Shown here: positions 7,790-57,317 of the stretch, piece by piece
How the letters are laid out: each line of letters starts with the position of its first letter
How positions within the stretch are numbered: the stretch's first letter is position 1
Source of the DNA: Gemmataceae bacterium
Lineage (GTDB): Bacteria; Planctomycetota; Planctomycetia; Gemmatales; Gemmataceae
Direction: 5' to 3'
Assembly (NCBI GenBank): GCA_019748295.1
Contig: JAIEPT010000063.1
Span: forward strand, 1 to 64,000
DNA length: 64,000 nucleotides
Position numbers and translations under genes: made by a program
Notes under the pieces: model-generated
What the model saw: only the letters and a program-made list of their open reading frames with translations
Database searches by the model: none
What the model was told of the DNA's origin: nothing

Positions 7790-8476
7790 TCACTGCCTCC
7801 CGCAAGAGTCCAGCAGTTCACGAACGGTGTCCACATTGACATGGGTAAGGCATTCCACGACCAAATCGGCTCCGCCGGCTTCCAAGCGTTCGCGTGAATG
7901 ATGGCCGACGAACGTGACGCCAATCGCCTTCATGCCGGCCGATTTCGCGGCCTGGATGCCTACGGGGGCATCCTCGAAAACGACGCAGCGGCTCGGTTCG
8001 ACGCCCAATCGCTGAGCGCCGAGCAGGAACACCAAGGGGTCGGGTTTGCCGCGAGCCACGTCTTCCATGGCGATGACGGCGCCGAGATAGGGACGCAGGC
8101 ACGACTGATCGAGGATCATCTCGACATTTTCTCGCGGCGCGCTGGAGCCGATCGCTTGCTTGAAACCCGCTTCATGCAGCGAACGCACCAAGTCCAGCAC
8201 GCCCGGCAATGGTTCCAGGCCGCGGGCGGCGTCTTTCCGGTAATACGCTTCCTTGCGTTCGCCGAGCGCGTCGATCTCTTTCGCGGTGTAATGGTCGCCG
8301 AAGACGCGTGGGATGATCTCGGGATTACGCCAGCCGAAGGTGTTGGCGAAATCCTCGCGGCTATAGATCTTGCCGATCTCGGCGGCGAGCATGTTCCACG
8401 CGCGAAAGTGTTGCTCCGCCGTGTCCACGAGCGTGCCGTCCACATCCCAAAGCACCGCGAACTCCGACGCCTTCAT
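7790..8476 (-). CDS. HAD-superfamily hydrolase, beta-phosphoglucomutase-like
   Basis: A 228-residue haloacid-dehalogenase-fold enzyme with a C1 helical cap. HAD motif I is LWDVDGTLVDTAEQHF (the DxD nucleophile and acid/base Asp pair), motif II is the Ser in AIGSSAPRENV, motif III is the Lys in MEDVARGKPDPLVFLL, and motif IV is VVFEDAPVGIQAAKSAGM. The GKPDP and EDAPxGIxAA strings are typical of beta-phosphoglucomutase and related sugar-phosphate phosphatases. The start at 8476 is supported by GGAGAG about 9 bases upstream; the longer open frame runs back through the palindrome at 8517-8732 and is rejected. Whether it is a mutase or a phosphatase cannot be decided here. Confidence 0.9.
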   Translation of the reverse strand: MKASEFAVLWDVDGTLVDTAEQHFRAWNMLAAEIGKIYSREDFANTFGWRNPEIIPRVFGDHYTAKEIDALGERKEAYYRKDAARGLEPLPGVLDLVRSLHEAGFKQAIGSSAPRENVEMILDQSCLRPYLGAVIAMEDVARGKPDPLVFLLGAQRLGVEPSRCVVFEDAPVGIQAAKSAGMKAIGVTFVGHHSRERLEAGGADLVVECLTHVNVDTVRELLDSCGRQ

Positions 8477-8516
8477 CTGATTTCTCTCCTGATTTTGGAG
8501 CAGCCATTCTATGTCG

Positions 8517-8732
8517 AACCCACTGAAGACGTGCCATGCTTGGGCGGATCCCCGGCAGGGGCCGTGGACGTCTCCGCTTTCACCGCCCAAGCATGCCCCC
8601 AGACCGGACGCCGGAACCTTGAGCATGCAGGGGCGACGTGTTCGGTCTGTGGGCATGCTTAGGCGGTGAAAGCGGAAGCTGCCATGACCCCTGCCAGGGA
8701 CCCGCCTAAGCATGGCACGTCTTCTGTGGGTT
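8517..8732. repeat. Nested inverted repeat with 93-bp arms
   Basis: Arms 8517-8609 and 8640-8732 are both 93 bases, about 85-88% complementary by eye, around a 30-base spacer. Each arm is itself a hairpin: the left arm contains GCCATGCTTGGGCGG and, about 35 bases on, CCGCCCAAGCATGCC. The structure is therefore a palindrome made of two palindromes. It lies between divergent genes (HAD - and spermidine-synthase fusion +), so it is not a simple terminator. Confidence 0.88.
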
Positions 8733-8942
8733 CCCGAAAGCAAACGGATTGCGTTGATACCGGCGGAATATCGTTTTCCTGCGACTAGATTCCCTAGGGT
8801 CGCGGCAGACTGGCCGTTCCTTCCGAAACCTTGGGCGGTTAGTTGCTTTCGCGTTGCGGCGTCTGTAACATGCCTTTTCTTCGGGAACGCCCTCCTCGCC
8901 TGGCGGCGGGTGCGGCGTTTTGTCGGCTTTCCGGCGAATGGA

Positions 8943-11900
8943 ATGGGCCGTTCGTCGGTGTCCAGGAGGTGGCCCTTGGCCCTTGTGACGTTTGCCCTCA
9001 CGCTCTTCGTGAGCGCGTTCCTCTTGTTCCTCGTCCAGCCGATGATCGGCAAGCTCATTCTCCCGCGCCTGGGCGGGACGCCTCAGGTGTGGAACACCTG
9101 CATGGTGTTCTTCCAAATGGTGCTGCTCGCGGGCTACTTTTACACGCATGCCATCGGCTCGTGGCTGAAGCTGCCCCTTCGGCGCCAACTCCTGATCCAC
9201 GGCATCCTGCTCTTCGTCCCGCTCGCCATCCTGCTCGTTGGTCCGTTCGACATCACGGGCTGGACGCCGCCGCCGGGGCAAAATCCCATCTTTTCGACTC
9301 TGCTGCTCCTGCTCAAAATCGTCGGCATTCCCTTCTTCGTCGTTTCCACCAGCGCTCCTCTGCTGCAGAAATGGTTCGCCCACACCGGCGATCCGAGCGC
9401 CAAGGATCCCTACTTCCTTTATGGAGCCAGCAACCTCGGCAGCTTGCTGTCGCTGGTCGCCTACCCGTTTCTCGTCGAACCGACGTTTCTGCTGAACAGC
9501 CAAGCCTGGCTTTGGACCTTCGGCTACATCGCCCTTGCTGGCTTGATCCTCTACTCGGCGTCGCTCGTGTGGACATCGAAGGCTCAGGCGGAACCGGCCG
9601 TCGCCCCCGCCGGTGCGGGCTCCGCCGAAACGGGCATTCAACCCGCCGCTGCACTCGCCACTGCGGCGCCCGCGGCCACGGCGATCCAGACCGGCAAACG
9701 CCGCATGCTGAAGCCGTCAACGCCCACTTCGAGTTCCACGGCGCCTCCGGTCAGCGTCGCCAAACCGCTTGACGACACGATGACCTGGGCCCGGCGAATC
9801 CGCTGGATTCTGCTCGCCGCCGCTCCCTCGTCGCTCATGCTCGGCGTGACCAGCTACGTCTCGACCGACTTGTCGCCGTTCCCATTGCTGTGGGCCATTC
9901 CGCTCGCTCTCTACCTGATTACGTTCATCCTCGTCTTCATGAAACGCTGGACGGAAGAACCGCACCAGGCGGTCTTGTACATTCAGCCGATCTTGCTGGC
10001 GACCATGACGTACTTCGTCGCCGCCCGCAACTTCACCGGCAACCCGTTCTGGGCGACCGTGTTCTCCTTCGGCGGGTTCTTCGTCGCCACGCTTGCCTGT
10101 CACGGCGAACTTGCGAAGGACCGACCCAGCCCACGACATCTCACCGAGTTCTTCCTGTGGATGTCCTTCGGCGGCATGCTCGGCGGCATGTTCAACGCGA
10201 TGTTTGCTCCGCTTCTCTTCACCGGCGTGGCCGAGTATCCGATTGCAATCATCCTCTGTGCCGCCCTTCGTCCCCGCCTTTCGCAGAGCGGTTGGATCGA
10301 CGGCCTTTTCCTGTCCTCGCCTCAGTCCGAAGCGAGCATGATTCGCACCAGCAACGGCTTCTCGCTCAGCTGGCACAACTTCATGAACGGCATCCGCCGT
10401 TCTCTCGGCATGCAGCAACGCGAGTTCGTGCCGCCGAACACGCCCTGGGTGCTGAACGTCAGCCTCGACATCCTGCTGGCGGGTCTGTTCACCCTCGTGC
10501 TGTGGTTCGTGAAGCGAAACGTCGCCAACTGGAACTGGTATCGCCTTGATCCCGAAGAAAACGGGCTCCTGTCTTTCCTCAAGACTCTTGGCTTTGCTGC
10601 CGGCACTCGAGATGAAATGTCCGAGACGGTGCAGCTGGGCGTCCGCTTGGTGCTGTTCATCATCCCGCTCGCCTTCTGCGTCGGCTTCATGGCTCGCAAC
10701 CTGCGATTCGCACTCGCCCTCGCCGGCCTGATGCTCGTCCACCTTTACCTGACCGATCGCGGCGAGGAACGCATCCGCTTCGCGACCCGCAGCTACTTCG
10801 GCGTGCTCAAGGTGCTCGAAGAGAAGGACGAGATTTTCGGAGTCAGCGAAAAGACCGGGGCTCCCGCGCCGCGTGCCATCGAGGCTCTCGATTTCCAGAA
10901 GCAACCGGAAGTCGCCGCCAAGCTTTCGGAGTACGCCAAGGAATTCAACAAGATCGTGCGTGCTCCTGCAGACGAACGCGATCGCCGTGAGGCGATCGAA
11001 AAGCTCCAGAAGGATTACGACGGCGTGATCAATGCTCGGTACACGTACCTCATGCACGGCACGACGTATCACGGGCGCAACTACATCGATCCGCCCGAAT
11101 TCCCCAAGATCAAGCTGTCGCGCATCGCGACGACGTACTACCACCGCTACGGCCCCGTCGGCGCGGTGATGGAACGGTTCAACTACTTCAAGGGCGCCCA
11201 GAACACGTTCCACACGGATGCCCGCATCCCGGCCGCCATTACCGCGATGATGGGTTCGATGCAGGGCGGCCTGCCGCTGGACGCGGTCGCTCAGGCATGG
11301 TCGGATGCGCCGATCGCCACCATCGGCCTCGGTTCCGGAACGATGGCGTCCTATTGCCGGCCCTTCGGGCATATTGCCTACTACGAAATCGACGAGAACA
11401 TCCGCAACTTTTCGTTGCCCCCCTCGGGCCGTGAGGCGTACTTCACCTACCTGCTGAACGCCCGCAAGCGCGGCGGTTTGGTGGAGGTGATCATGGGCGA
11501 CGCTCGCCTTTCGATCGAACGGGAAGCAGCCCGTGAGAAGGAACGGGAAACGAAGAAGTCGTTCAACGAGGAGTTCGGCGACTTCAACGTGACCGCGATG
11601 CGCGAAGGCTACTACAAGGTCATGGTCGTGGATGCCTTCAGCTCCGATGCCATCCCGATCCATCTCCTCACCAAGGAAGCCGTCAACCTTTACATGGAAA
11701 AGCTCGCGAACGACGGCGTGCTTTGCCTGCATACCTCGAACCGCCACATGGACCTCATCCTGCCGATCTCCGAAATCGTCTATGACCATAACCAGGCTCA
11801 CCCGAGCGACCTCTGGTACGTGAGCATCGGTCAGGACAACGGCAAATCGGCATCGTTGGGGCACTTCGGTTCGGAATACGTGATGGTCTCGCGCGTGAAG

Positions 11901-12083
11901 GAACTGGTGGACGGCCCCTCGCTCAGCAAGGCCGTCGATGGTTCCGAGGTAACGTGGACCAATCAAACGGCGACACGGCCTGCCCGGCGCCGCAATGATC
12001 GCGAGCAGTGGTATCCGCCCGCGAACCCAGGCCGCAACCTGTGGACCGACAGTTACTCCAACATCATCCGCATTCTCCGGTAG
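8943..12083 (+). CDS. Membrane protein fused to a spermidine synthase-like domain (paralog 1)
   Basis: About 1046 residues. The N-terminal two thirds is a polytopic membrane domain beginning VTFALTLFVSAFLLFLVQP and containing LGGTPQVWNTCMVFFQ, in two membrane blocks separated by an Ala/Pro-rich linker near residues 205-270. The C-terminal part is a class I methyltransferase or aminopropyltransferase fold: ATIGLGSGTMASY (glycine loop), YYEIDENIR (acidic residue after strand 2), VIMGDARLSIE and VVDAFSSDAIPIH (SpeE-type catalytic Asp region). Such fused proteins are annotated as MFS/spermidine synthase; polyamine transfer is not proven for them. The start is uncertain: ATG 8943, or TTG 8976 placed 6 bases after a perfect AGGAGG at 8964. 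The next gene is a tandem paralog. Confidence 0.85.
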   Translation: MGRSSVSRRWPLALVTFALTLFVSAFLLFLVQPMIGKLILPRLGGTPQVWNTCMVFFQMVLLAGYFYTHAIGSWLKLPLRRQLLIHGILLFVPLAILLVGPFDITGWTPPPGQNPIFSTLLLLLKIVGIPFFVVSTSAPLLQKWFAHTGDPSAKDPYFLYGASNLGSLLSLVAYPFLVEPTFLLNSQAWLWTFGYIALAGLILYSASLVWTSKAQAEPAVAPAGAGSAETGIQPAAALATAAPAATAIQTGKRRMLKPSTPTSSSTAPPVSVAKPLDDTMTWARRIRWILLAAAPSSLMLGVTSYVSTDLSPFPLLWAIPLALYLITFILVFMKRWTEEPHQAVLYIQPILLATMTYFVAARNFTGNPFWATVFSFGGFFVATLACHGELAKDRPSPRHLTEFFLWMSFGGMLGGMFNAMFAPLLFTGVAEYPIAIILCAALRPRLSQSGWIDGLFLSSPQSEASMIRTSNGFSLSWHNFMNGIRRSLGMQQREFVPPNTPWVLNVSLDILLAGLFTLVLWFVKRNVANWNWYRLDPEENGLLSFLKTLGFAAGTRDEMSETVQLGVRLVLFIIPLAFCVGFMARNLRFALALAGLMLVHLYLTDRGEERIRFATRSYFGVLKVLEEKDEIFGVSEKTGAPAPRAIEALDFQKQPEVAAKLSEYAKEFNKIVRAPADERDRREAIEKLQKDYDGVINARYTYLMHGTTYHGRNYIDPPEFPKIKLSRIATTYYHRYGPVGAVMERFNYFKGAQNTFHTDARIPAAITAMMGSMQGGLPLDAVAQAWSDAPIATIGLGSGTMASYCRPFGHIAYYEIDENIRNFSLPPSGREAYFTYLLNARKRGGLVEVIMGDARLSIEREAAREKERETKKSFNEEFGDFNVTAMREGYYKVMVVDAFSSDAIPIHLLTKEAVNLYMEKLANDGVLCLHTSNRHMDLILPISEIVYDHNQAHPSDLWYVSIGQDNGKSASLGHFGSEYVMVSRVKELVDGPSLSKAVDGSEVTWTNQTATRPARRRNDREQWYPPANPGRNLWTDSYSNIIRILR

Positions 12084-15564: not shown

Positions 15565-15772
15565 CTAGGGAAACGCCCTCCGTGGCGCTCCGCATGACCA
15601 GGCGCGTCCGATGGTTCGTCACCCGATATGCAATCGCCTCTCCCCCGCTTGCGGCTTAGCGTTCGCAGGTACTATCCGGATCGTTAAGTCGCAAGCGGCG
15701 ATCGCGGAATGCGAGCACTCGACGCGGTATGCTCCAAGTCCCGCGGAACGCCGCGGAGGGCGTTCCCTACAG
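15565..15772. mobile_element. MITE-like element, copy 1 (about 208 bp)
   Basis: A non-coding element bounded by terminal inverted repeats of about 28 bp (CTAGGGAAACGCCCTCC at the left, GGAGGGCGTTCCCTAC at the right). It carries an inner CCGCTTGCGGCTTAGCG / TAAGTCGCAAGCGG pair. It matches the sequence at 21364-21566 along its whole length in reverse orientation, including a shared inner stretch CGCGTCCGATGGTTCGTCAC. No transposase is encoded. A plus-strand frame through it (from 15611) antisense to the next gene is not a real gene. Confidence 0.8.
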
Positions 15773-21262: not shown

Positions 21263-21363
21263 CGTGGTCGGCGAACCTGTCAAGTTCAAGTCGCACCCGA
21301 ATCGGCTCGATTCGTTAAGTGAGGGCTTCAATTGAAACCTTCAGGCCTGTTGGCCGTTGCGTT

Positions 21364-21566
21364 CTGTAGGGAACGCCCTCCGCGGCGTTCCGCCGGACTG
21401 GATGCGTACGTCCCCGAGTATTCACATTCCGCGACCCCGCTTGCGGCTTGGCGTTCATGGCGTCCAATCGCTAAGCCGCAAGCGGGGGGGAGACGACTGC
21501 ATAATGGGTGACGAACCATCGGACGCGTCCAGTCCGGCGGAACGCCACGGAGGGCGTTCCCTACAG
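21364..21566. mobile_element. MITE-like element, copy 2 (about 203 bp)
   Basis: Terminal inverted repeats CTGTAGGGAACGCCCTCCG ... GGAGGGCGTTCCCTACAG, with arms that continue into GGCGTTCCGCCGGACTGGA and an inner CCGCTTGCGGCTTGGCG / CGCTAAGCCGCAAGCGG palindrome. It is the reverse-orientation relative of 15565-15772. It fills most of the 430-bp gap between the TPR lipoprotein and the exported protein gene, which otherwise holds no coding sequence. Confidence 0.82.
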
Positions 21567-21620
21567 AACGCGACGTCGCGGCGTAGGTTGGTGATGAATG
21601 TCGCGTTAATTTGGGAACTG

Positions 21621-42970: not shown

Positions 42971-42984
42971 TGATCGGTGCCGGC

Positions 42985-43119
42985 GAGCAACCGCTGTTAG
43001 GCGGCTGGTAAAGCATCCTGCACAAGTTTCTTCGTCCCCAGACCTTTTGTCCTTGCGAGTCGTCTGGGGTAATGAGACTTGTGCAGGATGCCGTACCAAC
43101 CGCCTAACAGCGGCTGCTC
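42985..43119. repeat. Inverted repeat with about 58-bp arms
   Basis: Left arm from GAGCAACCGCTGTTAGGCGG to CCCCAGAC at 43043; right arm from GTCTGGGG at 43062 to CCGCCTAACAGCGGCTGCTC at 43119. Mismatches are few (about 10 by eye) and the spacer is 18 bases. It fills the 169-bp gap between the convergent DUF1559 gene and the next minus-strand gene. The outermost CCGCTGTTAGGCGG is itself nearly palindromic. Confidence 0.83.
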
Positions 43120-43139
43120 TCCAATGGCATCCGACTCGG

Positions 43140-57205: not shown

Positions 57206-57208
57206 CTT

Positions 57209-57310
57209 TCTATGTAGCCCTCTCGCTCCGCGAGAGGTAAGCGGATGAATGCCATGCGATTGCCTGGCGCTATGCCGCTTACCTCTCGCGGAGCGAGAGG
57301 GCTACATAGA
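57209..57310. repeat. Perfect 36-bp inverted repeat
   Basis: Arms 57209-57244 and 57275-57310 are exact reverse complements (TCTATGTAGCCCTCTCGCTC ... GCGAGAGGTAAGCGG) around 30 bases. Each arm contains a smaller CTCTCGC/GCGAGAG palindrome. It starts 4 bases after the HIT gene stop. Confidence 0.9.
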
Positions 57311-57317
57311 ACTACCT

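Follow-up and report, generated by a model that had tools for sequence, protein, structure and literature searches.

The closest described systems are the REPINs of Pseudomonas fluorescens SBW25, inverted doublets of REP sequences that lie outside genes, combine conserved units with a variable spacer and cluster beside RAYT genes (Bertels and Rainey 2011; PMC3116915; for this and the other papers cited, our statements refer to the parts of the text that were accessible). In the legend of its Fig. S11, a long hairpin versus a clover was proposed for the SBW25 REPINs. GTAG-tagged REPs also form head-to-head dimers with the foot outside and linkers of mostly 20-100 bp; heterodimers with different stems (P. 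aeruginosa GTAG-24) and insertions inside other palindromes are described among them, and Planctomycetes are already named as carriers of tagged REPs (PMC3733652). The same source finds no obvious explanation for the heterodimer preference, and the fold used by the REPIN transposase is still an open question in this literature (PMC3116915, PMC3733652). In the TnpAREP / REPtron systems a HuH-type RAYT is flanked by its own hairpins, a tetranucleotide immediately precedes the hairpin on its 5' side, and REP sizes of 21-65 nt are reported (PMC6006769, PMC8266576). TnpAREP cleaves single strands (PMC8266576), and RAYT classes and the guide sequence are treated in PMC6006769.

We analysed a stretch of 64,000 nucleotides from a Gemmataceae bacterium (the window), whose genome we call the source genome. 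The inverted repeat at 8516-8733, which ranks first in the window among those with arms up to 400 nt apart, is very probably a planctomycete REPIN copy, a non-autonomous miniature of two head-to-head REP-like units with their GTGC feet outside (Table 1). In kind the element is an ordinary REPIN and shares the features of the SBW25 and GTAG-tagged elements listed above; it is unusual in loop and foot. Its family has 65-nt units with a 13-bp stem and a loop of about 35 nt, whereas the SBW25 REPINs have a 16-mer core (PMC3116915) and the loops tabulated for GTAG families measure 2-20 nt (PMC3733652). The foot is GTGC, or GTGG in some relatives, compared to the described GTAG/GTGG. In the accessible parts of the REP literature, including those on planctomycete REPs, no long-loop CATGCTT family was found. 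In an exact-string literature search with four motifs, 612 papers contained one or more of them; among the 15 listed, no title dealt with a bacterial repeat, and both CATGCTT strings were absent from these 15.

Table 1. Coordinates of the element, its parts and the flanking genes in the window
Feature	Position	Strand	Remarks
HAD-like hydrolase gene	7790..8476	-	Pfam HAD_2, E 2.2e-32; start 54 nt from unit 1
Outer left arm	8516..8530	.	GAACCCACTGAAGAC; 14/15 match to right arm
REPIN-like element	8531..8718	.	Two inverted REP-like units and linker; model matches
Unit 1 (type A)	8531..8595	+	Foot GTGC 8531-8534; loop 8548-8582
Unit 1 stem	8535-8547 with 8583-8595	+	CATGCTTGGGCGG/CCGCCCAAGCATG
Linker, 58 nt	8596..8653	.	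Ends partly complementary, CCCCCAGACCGGAC / GTTCGGTCTGTGGG
Unit 2 (type A)	8654..8718	-	Foot GTGC 8718-8715
Unit 2 stem	8714-8702 with 8666-8654	-	CATGCTTAGGCGG/CCGCCTAAGCATG
Outer right arm	8719..8733	.	GTCTTCTGTGGGTTC
Gene of unassigned family	8976..12083	+	Predicted start 257 nt from unit 2 (simple gene caller)

A preliminary description of the locus had given pairing arms of 93 bp. The inverted repeat is real, but its arms (8516-8609 and 8640-8733, 30 nt apart) measure 94 nt each and are 86% complementary. As a single strand of 231 nt it folds at -98.3 kcal/mol, compared to -43.3 +/- 3.8 kcal/mol for 200 shuffles, none of which was equally stable (z = -14.4). Each arm is also a hairpin by itself, as had been noted, with a perfect 13-bp inverted repeat whose halves are separated by 35 nt. 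The sequences that had been quoted for both arms, GCCATGCTTGGGCGG / CCGCCCAAGCATGCC, occur in arm 1, but arm 2 has the pair given in Table 1 for unit 2: GGG/CCC in the stem of arm 1 is AGG/CCT in arm 2, a compensated change from G-C to A-T. The view that the DNA could adopt one long or two small structures was right, and it is the 'hairpin versus clover' alternative known for REPINs. In silico, the long fold of the window copy (-98 kcal/mol with flanks) was by far more stable than the local folds (about -22 and -19 kcal/mol). This copy is atypical in that both arms are of one type, which makes it one of only three exceptions among 68 pairs to the rule that partners have different stem classes. 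Its long hairpin looks so good because the partners are of the same class and because the outer 15 nt match so well, and an outer-arm match of 14/15 was reached in only 2 of the 66 pairs measured in the family. The two units scored 83.5 bits (8531-8595, plus strand) and 87.0 bits (8654-8718, minus strand) with a covariance model whose underlying alignment includes both of them. No match to Rfam at gathering scores and no tRNA was found in the window.

The preliminary description had proposed a search for copies elsewhere, and BLAST, the covariance model and a stem pattern all found many. The pattern CATGCTTNNNCGG-N(30-50)-CCGNNNAAGCATG matched 158 times in the 6.47-Mb source genome, while the reversed pattern used as a control did not match at all; the units are therefore short palindromes in high copy number, as in REPINs. 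BLAST of the element returned 124 rows, many of which represent one place on both strands, and the covariance model (63 non-redundant units) found 150 matches in the source genome, which are all that were scored. We fetched 98 stretches and scanned them together with the window (99 stretches, 398 kb), which yielded 177 units in 102 clusters. The 65-nt unit consists of the foot GTGC, the 13-bp stem CATGCTTnnnCGG and the loop, which is 33-36 nt long in all 177 units. GTGC was present in 168 of them and GTGG in one, so that the foot in this genome is not the GT[AG]G guide tetranucleotide of REPINs. Copies were also seen within 300 nt of several contig ends (e.g. C25, C87, C136, C312), indicating that contigs probably break at the repeat and that the copy number is perhaps an underestimate. 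The 9-mer GTGCCATGC at the 5' end of the unit was observed in two or three tandem copies at six loci (L015, L018, L030, L036, L047, L128) and in a shorter form in L012; this is possibly slippage or a footprint of strand transfer.

Among the 102 clusters, 52 are simple pairs (+ then -) lying off the stretch ends and four are double pairs, and single units occur 17 times off the stretch ends and 21 times at them. Neighbouring units form inverted doublets with the GTGC feet outside at 68 of the 75 junctions. The opposite order (- then +) was found at six junctions, always inside larger clusters (three or four units); one junction was ++, for which BLAST put the second unit in the opposite orientation. 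Linkers range from 27 to 133 nt, are mostly 28, 33, 36 or 43 nt long, and show a 15-nt tandem step (e.g. GAACGCTCGGAAGCT).

Placement was judged with a simple codon-usage gene caller, and 31 of the 102 clusters were left out of the count, having no gene called on one side. The family is mainly intergenic: 67 of the 71 judgeable clusters lie between genes and four overlap called ORFs. The gaps around these 67 clusters, all with a gene on both sides, are tandem in 39, convergent in 17 and divergent in 11 cases, and the divergent setting of the window copy is therefore one of several. Of all gaps in these stretches, 144 are tandem, 37 convergent and 38 divergent, and by raw counts the distribution of the clusters does not stand out clearly from this background.

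These data bear on the local role that the preliminary description implied by placing the hairpin between divergent promoters. The two genes are indeed divergent, but a scan of 8400-9050 gave no sigma-70-like promoter, so that the divergent promoters had been deduced from gene orientation only. The longest open frame of the downstream (+) gene starts at 8712, within the element. A regulatory switch, in which supercoiling shifts the DNA between a long cruciform and short ones and the two flanking genes are tuned in this way, would suit the position of the element, with divergent genes on its two sides and the HAD start at a distance of 54 nt, and the very stable long fold of this copy. However, the family is spread over the whole genome and occupies more tandem and convergent than divergent gaps, and the downstream gene was found beside the HAD gene in none of 29 relatives' loci (flanks fetched up to 1.5 kb). 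In addition, the pairing of the long arms is not conserved across the family in the source genome. Together with the missing promoter match, this makes such a switch very improbable. Most likely, the element at this locus is a past insertion without a dedicated function, which may have an incidental effect on the HAD gene's 5' region.

Alternatively, a REPIN could have been recruited later at some loci for mRNA stability, attenuation or termination, possibly here in the 5' untranslated region of the HAD gene. REPs are reported to be active in gene expression (PMC6006769, PMC8266576), and tandem or convergent gaps account for 56 of the 67 intergenic clusters. On the other hand, no intrinsic terminator (GC hairpin with a loop of 3-8 nt, followed by a T run) was found within 8516-8733; the scan, which sees loops of 3-8 nt only, gave three candidates, all at 8853-9015. 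Recruitment at the RNA level is also at odds with the gap orientations, which are not clearly distinct from those of all gaps, and with the layout of the doublet: the two units run on opposite strands, so that a single transcript could contain only one of them in a given sense. We therefore consider it unlikely.

The outer arms raise the question of whether a classical MITE of a DDE-type IS could explain the element instead, the shared outer arms being its terminal inverted repeats. In line with this, 61 units have common longer outer arms containing TTGCATCTTCGAC. However, these arms are absent from 112 units with enough flank, and at two loci, L130 and L131, the arm is found next to a different repeat (CCCGAAGCG), with no unit of the present family. 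Of all explanations considered, a DDE-type MITE is the least probable, and the TTGCATCTTCGAC arm is perhaps a shared insertion target.

The REPIN family allowed us to ask which of the two folds is kept. For the alignment (A1), units were chosen by sequence similarity and constant stem ends, and the variable triplet was not used for picking; 63 of 64 distinct sequences were used, and one 74-nt unit and two incomplete units were dropped. The 13-bp stem was paired in 99.6% of the cells, with seven (nearly) invariant pairs and three middle pairs that change on both sides. Changes on both sides of the stem amounted to 62 cells in the 63 units, compared to 23.2 in shuffles, of which none of 500 was as high, although many copies are related and the independent events are fewer than these 62 cells. 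In the 68 head-to-head pairs, the middle triplet (G-U included) was paired within units in 396 of 408 cases (97%) but between partners in only 115 of 408 (28%); with Watson-Crick pairs only, the values were 360 and 95 of 408, respectively. The unit finder accepted units from 9 of 13 stem matches upward and is therefore mildly biased toward paired stems. Partners matched less in the middle triplet than in all 1000 shuffles, and their stem classes (G-type and C-type) differed in 65 of the 68 pairs, where 34 were expected and the maximum of 2000 shuffles was 49. Both partner shuffles mix the unit classes freely and thus test a heterodimer against random union only; they give no support for an 'avoidance' of partners beyond the asymmetry of type A and type B.

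Since the triplet covaries within the unit and not between partners, the sequences favour two small hairpins, and not the long cruciform, as the form preserved in the source genome. This differs from the SBW25 REPINs, where compensatory changes run along the long hairpin (PMC3116915). Partners also differ in G004 (7 of 7 pairs), at another stem position, whereas partner stems are identical in G018 (none of 6 pairs differs), UBA4732 (none of 22) and two further MAGs (none of 3). The heterodimer state is thus lineage-specific, and only heterodimer lineages discriminate between the two folds, G018 and UBA4732 being compatible with a long hairpin because their stems are identical. One possible, though doubtful, extension is that the clover fold is under selection and that partner stems were driven apart, with compensation within the units, to prevent the long hairpin. 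At least two planctomycete lineages would have taken this course independently, at the middle triplet in the source genome and at another stem position in G004, and the result would be REPINs that are obligate heterodimers, readable by a RAYT and spared by hairpin nucleases. With 65 of 68 partners differing and stems paired within units, the family bears on both the fold and the heterodimer questions by sequence alone.

With strict filters, the covariance model found matches in 5 of 41 genomes including the source genome: 27 in G018, 18 in G004 (19 in a second scan), three in G003 and one in G009. Diverged unit pairs in other genera have the same orientation. A scan of named genomes gave at least 87 stretches, and among the 80 matches listed, 75 were planctomycete, four came from Saccharothrix and one from a Legionella MAG. 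The Saccharothrix loci (four) and the Legionella locus carry differently built palindromes and were taken as chance or convergence. The foot GTGG was found in 17 of 23 units of G004, in all 12 of JAKEET and in 37 of 69 of JACOUH, and, with one exception, every unit counted across the IMG/VR contigs and the seven genome sets besides the source genome had GTGC or GTGG. Outside the source genome the counts are limited to units whose foot is GTGN, and some loci of the G018 set may be present twice, under two names. Loops of 30-40 nt were found among the values shown for these sets. Similar units were also seen on four viral-labelled contigs from one sample (L270-L273, IMG/VR 3300047160), which are either host contamination or phage-borne copies.

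An intact cognate RAYT lies beside the units in the MAG UBA4732 (L225, DHJA01000001.1; gene at L225:3380-3946). This protein of 188 aa matches NF047646 REP_Tyr_transpos with 90.5 bits (cut-off 80), Pfam Y1_Tnp with 18.6 bits, which is under the cut-off of 23, and TnpAREP in PDB 4er8 weakly (E 2.9e-5). Paired units follow about 25 nt past its stop, the start has a diverged single unit (22.6 bits) at a distance of about 25 nt, and further pairs are found on both sides. As in the TnpAREP / REPtron systems, a RAYT is thus flanked by its own hairpins.

In the source genome only remnants of such a gene adjoin the units. Contigs C105 and C58 end within a RAYT C-terminus, each broken at the same base and 66-67 nt from a unit; the two C-termini are identical in 43 of 44 residues and share 29 of 44 with the UBA4732 RAYT. 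C236 carries a RAYT N-terminal relic 55 nt from a unit. By comparison, the regions within 70 nt of known clusters make up about 0.45% of the source genome. The C-terminal fragments matched NF047646 with E 0.0016, far under the cut-off, and the N-terminal relic did not match it. In C236 (L118, G000:C236:1-300) the N-terminus runs into the 3' flank of the gene as found at C58 and C105, which indicates an internal deletion next to units. The search of the source genome yielded no intact cognate RAYT, and the middle part of the gene (about residues 35-144) was absent among the matches listed. None of the 13 PF01797 loci of this genome had a unit in flanks of up to 1.5 kb on each side, and several of them carry other palindrome families; the closest intact homologue, on C378 (L274), was likewise without a unit. 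Of 23 Y1_Tnp loci in four relatives, one (L174) had a unit, about 0.8 kb away.

Across the class, a homologue of the UBA4732 RAYT was present in 109 of 297 genomes at E <= 1e-15. We took the best match from each of 30 genomes, with the gene position approximate in a few shortened loci, and in 22 of these 30 loci both flanks contained GGGTG[CG]C at a distance of up to 300 nt. The motif occurred 1.37 times per 300 nt in the RAYT flanks compared to 0.20 elsewhere in the same loci, and in several of the loci it precedes shorter hairpins. The planctomycete RAYT has the motifs EHVH / WQ / YVHANP, unlike TnpAREP / REPtron. We know of no cleavage data for a planctomycete RAYT of this kind.

The REPIN-type element is probably mobilised as single-stranded DNA by a RAYT. 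When the strand becomes single, for instance at a fork, each unit would fold locally; the RAYT would then recognise foot and stem, cut beside them and join the doublet elsewhere, and copies would survive mainly between genes. The family extends the described REPs by a long-loop type that has a matching RAYT, in a phylum known to carry REPs but for which we found little literature.

Other palindromes of the window were also seen near transposase genes. A second family (GGGAACGCCCTCCG..) occurs at 21355-21575 and 15569-15767 and also flanks the Y1_Tnp gene in L060 (G000:C384); it looks like a separate REP/RAYT pair. The palindrome CTATGTAGCCCTCTCGCTCCGCGAGAGG at 57208-57311 is also found beside the Y1_Tnp match in L055, and a motif like CAGCCGCTGTTAGGCGGCTG, which is part of the palindrome at 42982-43122, flanks the Y1_Tnp gene in L053. 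In L025, L030, L042, L129 and L132, the palindrome GAGCCGCGCACGCAGTAAGCGG.. lies inside the linker or a unit, which indicates nested insertion and a mosaic of REP families; it is also present beside the Y1_Tnp match in L054.
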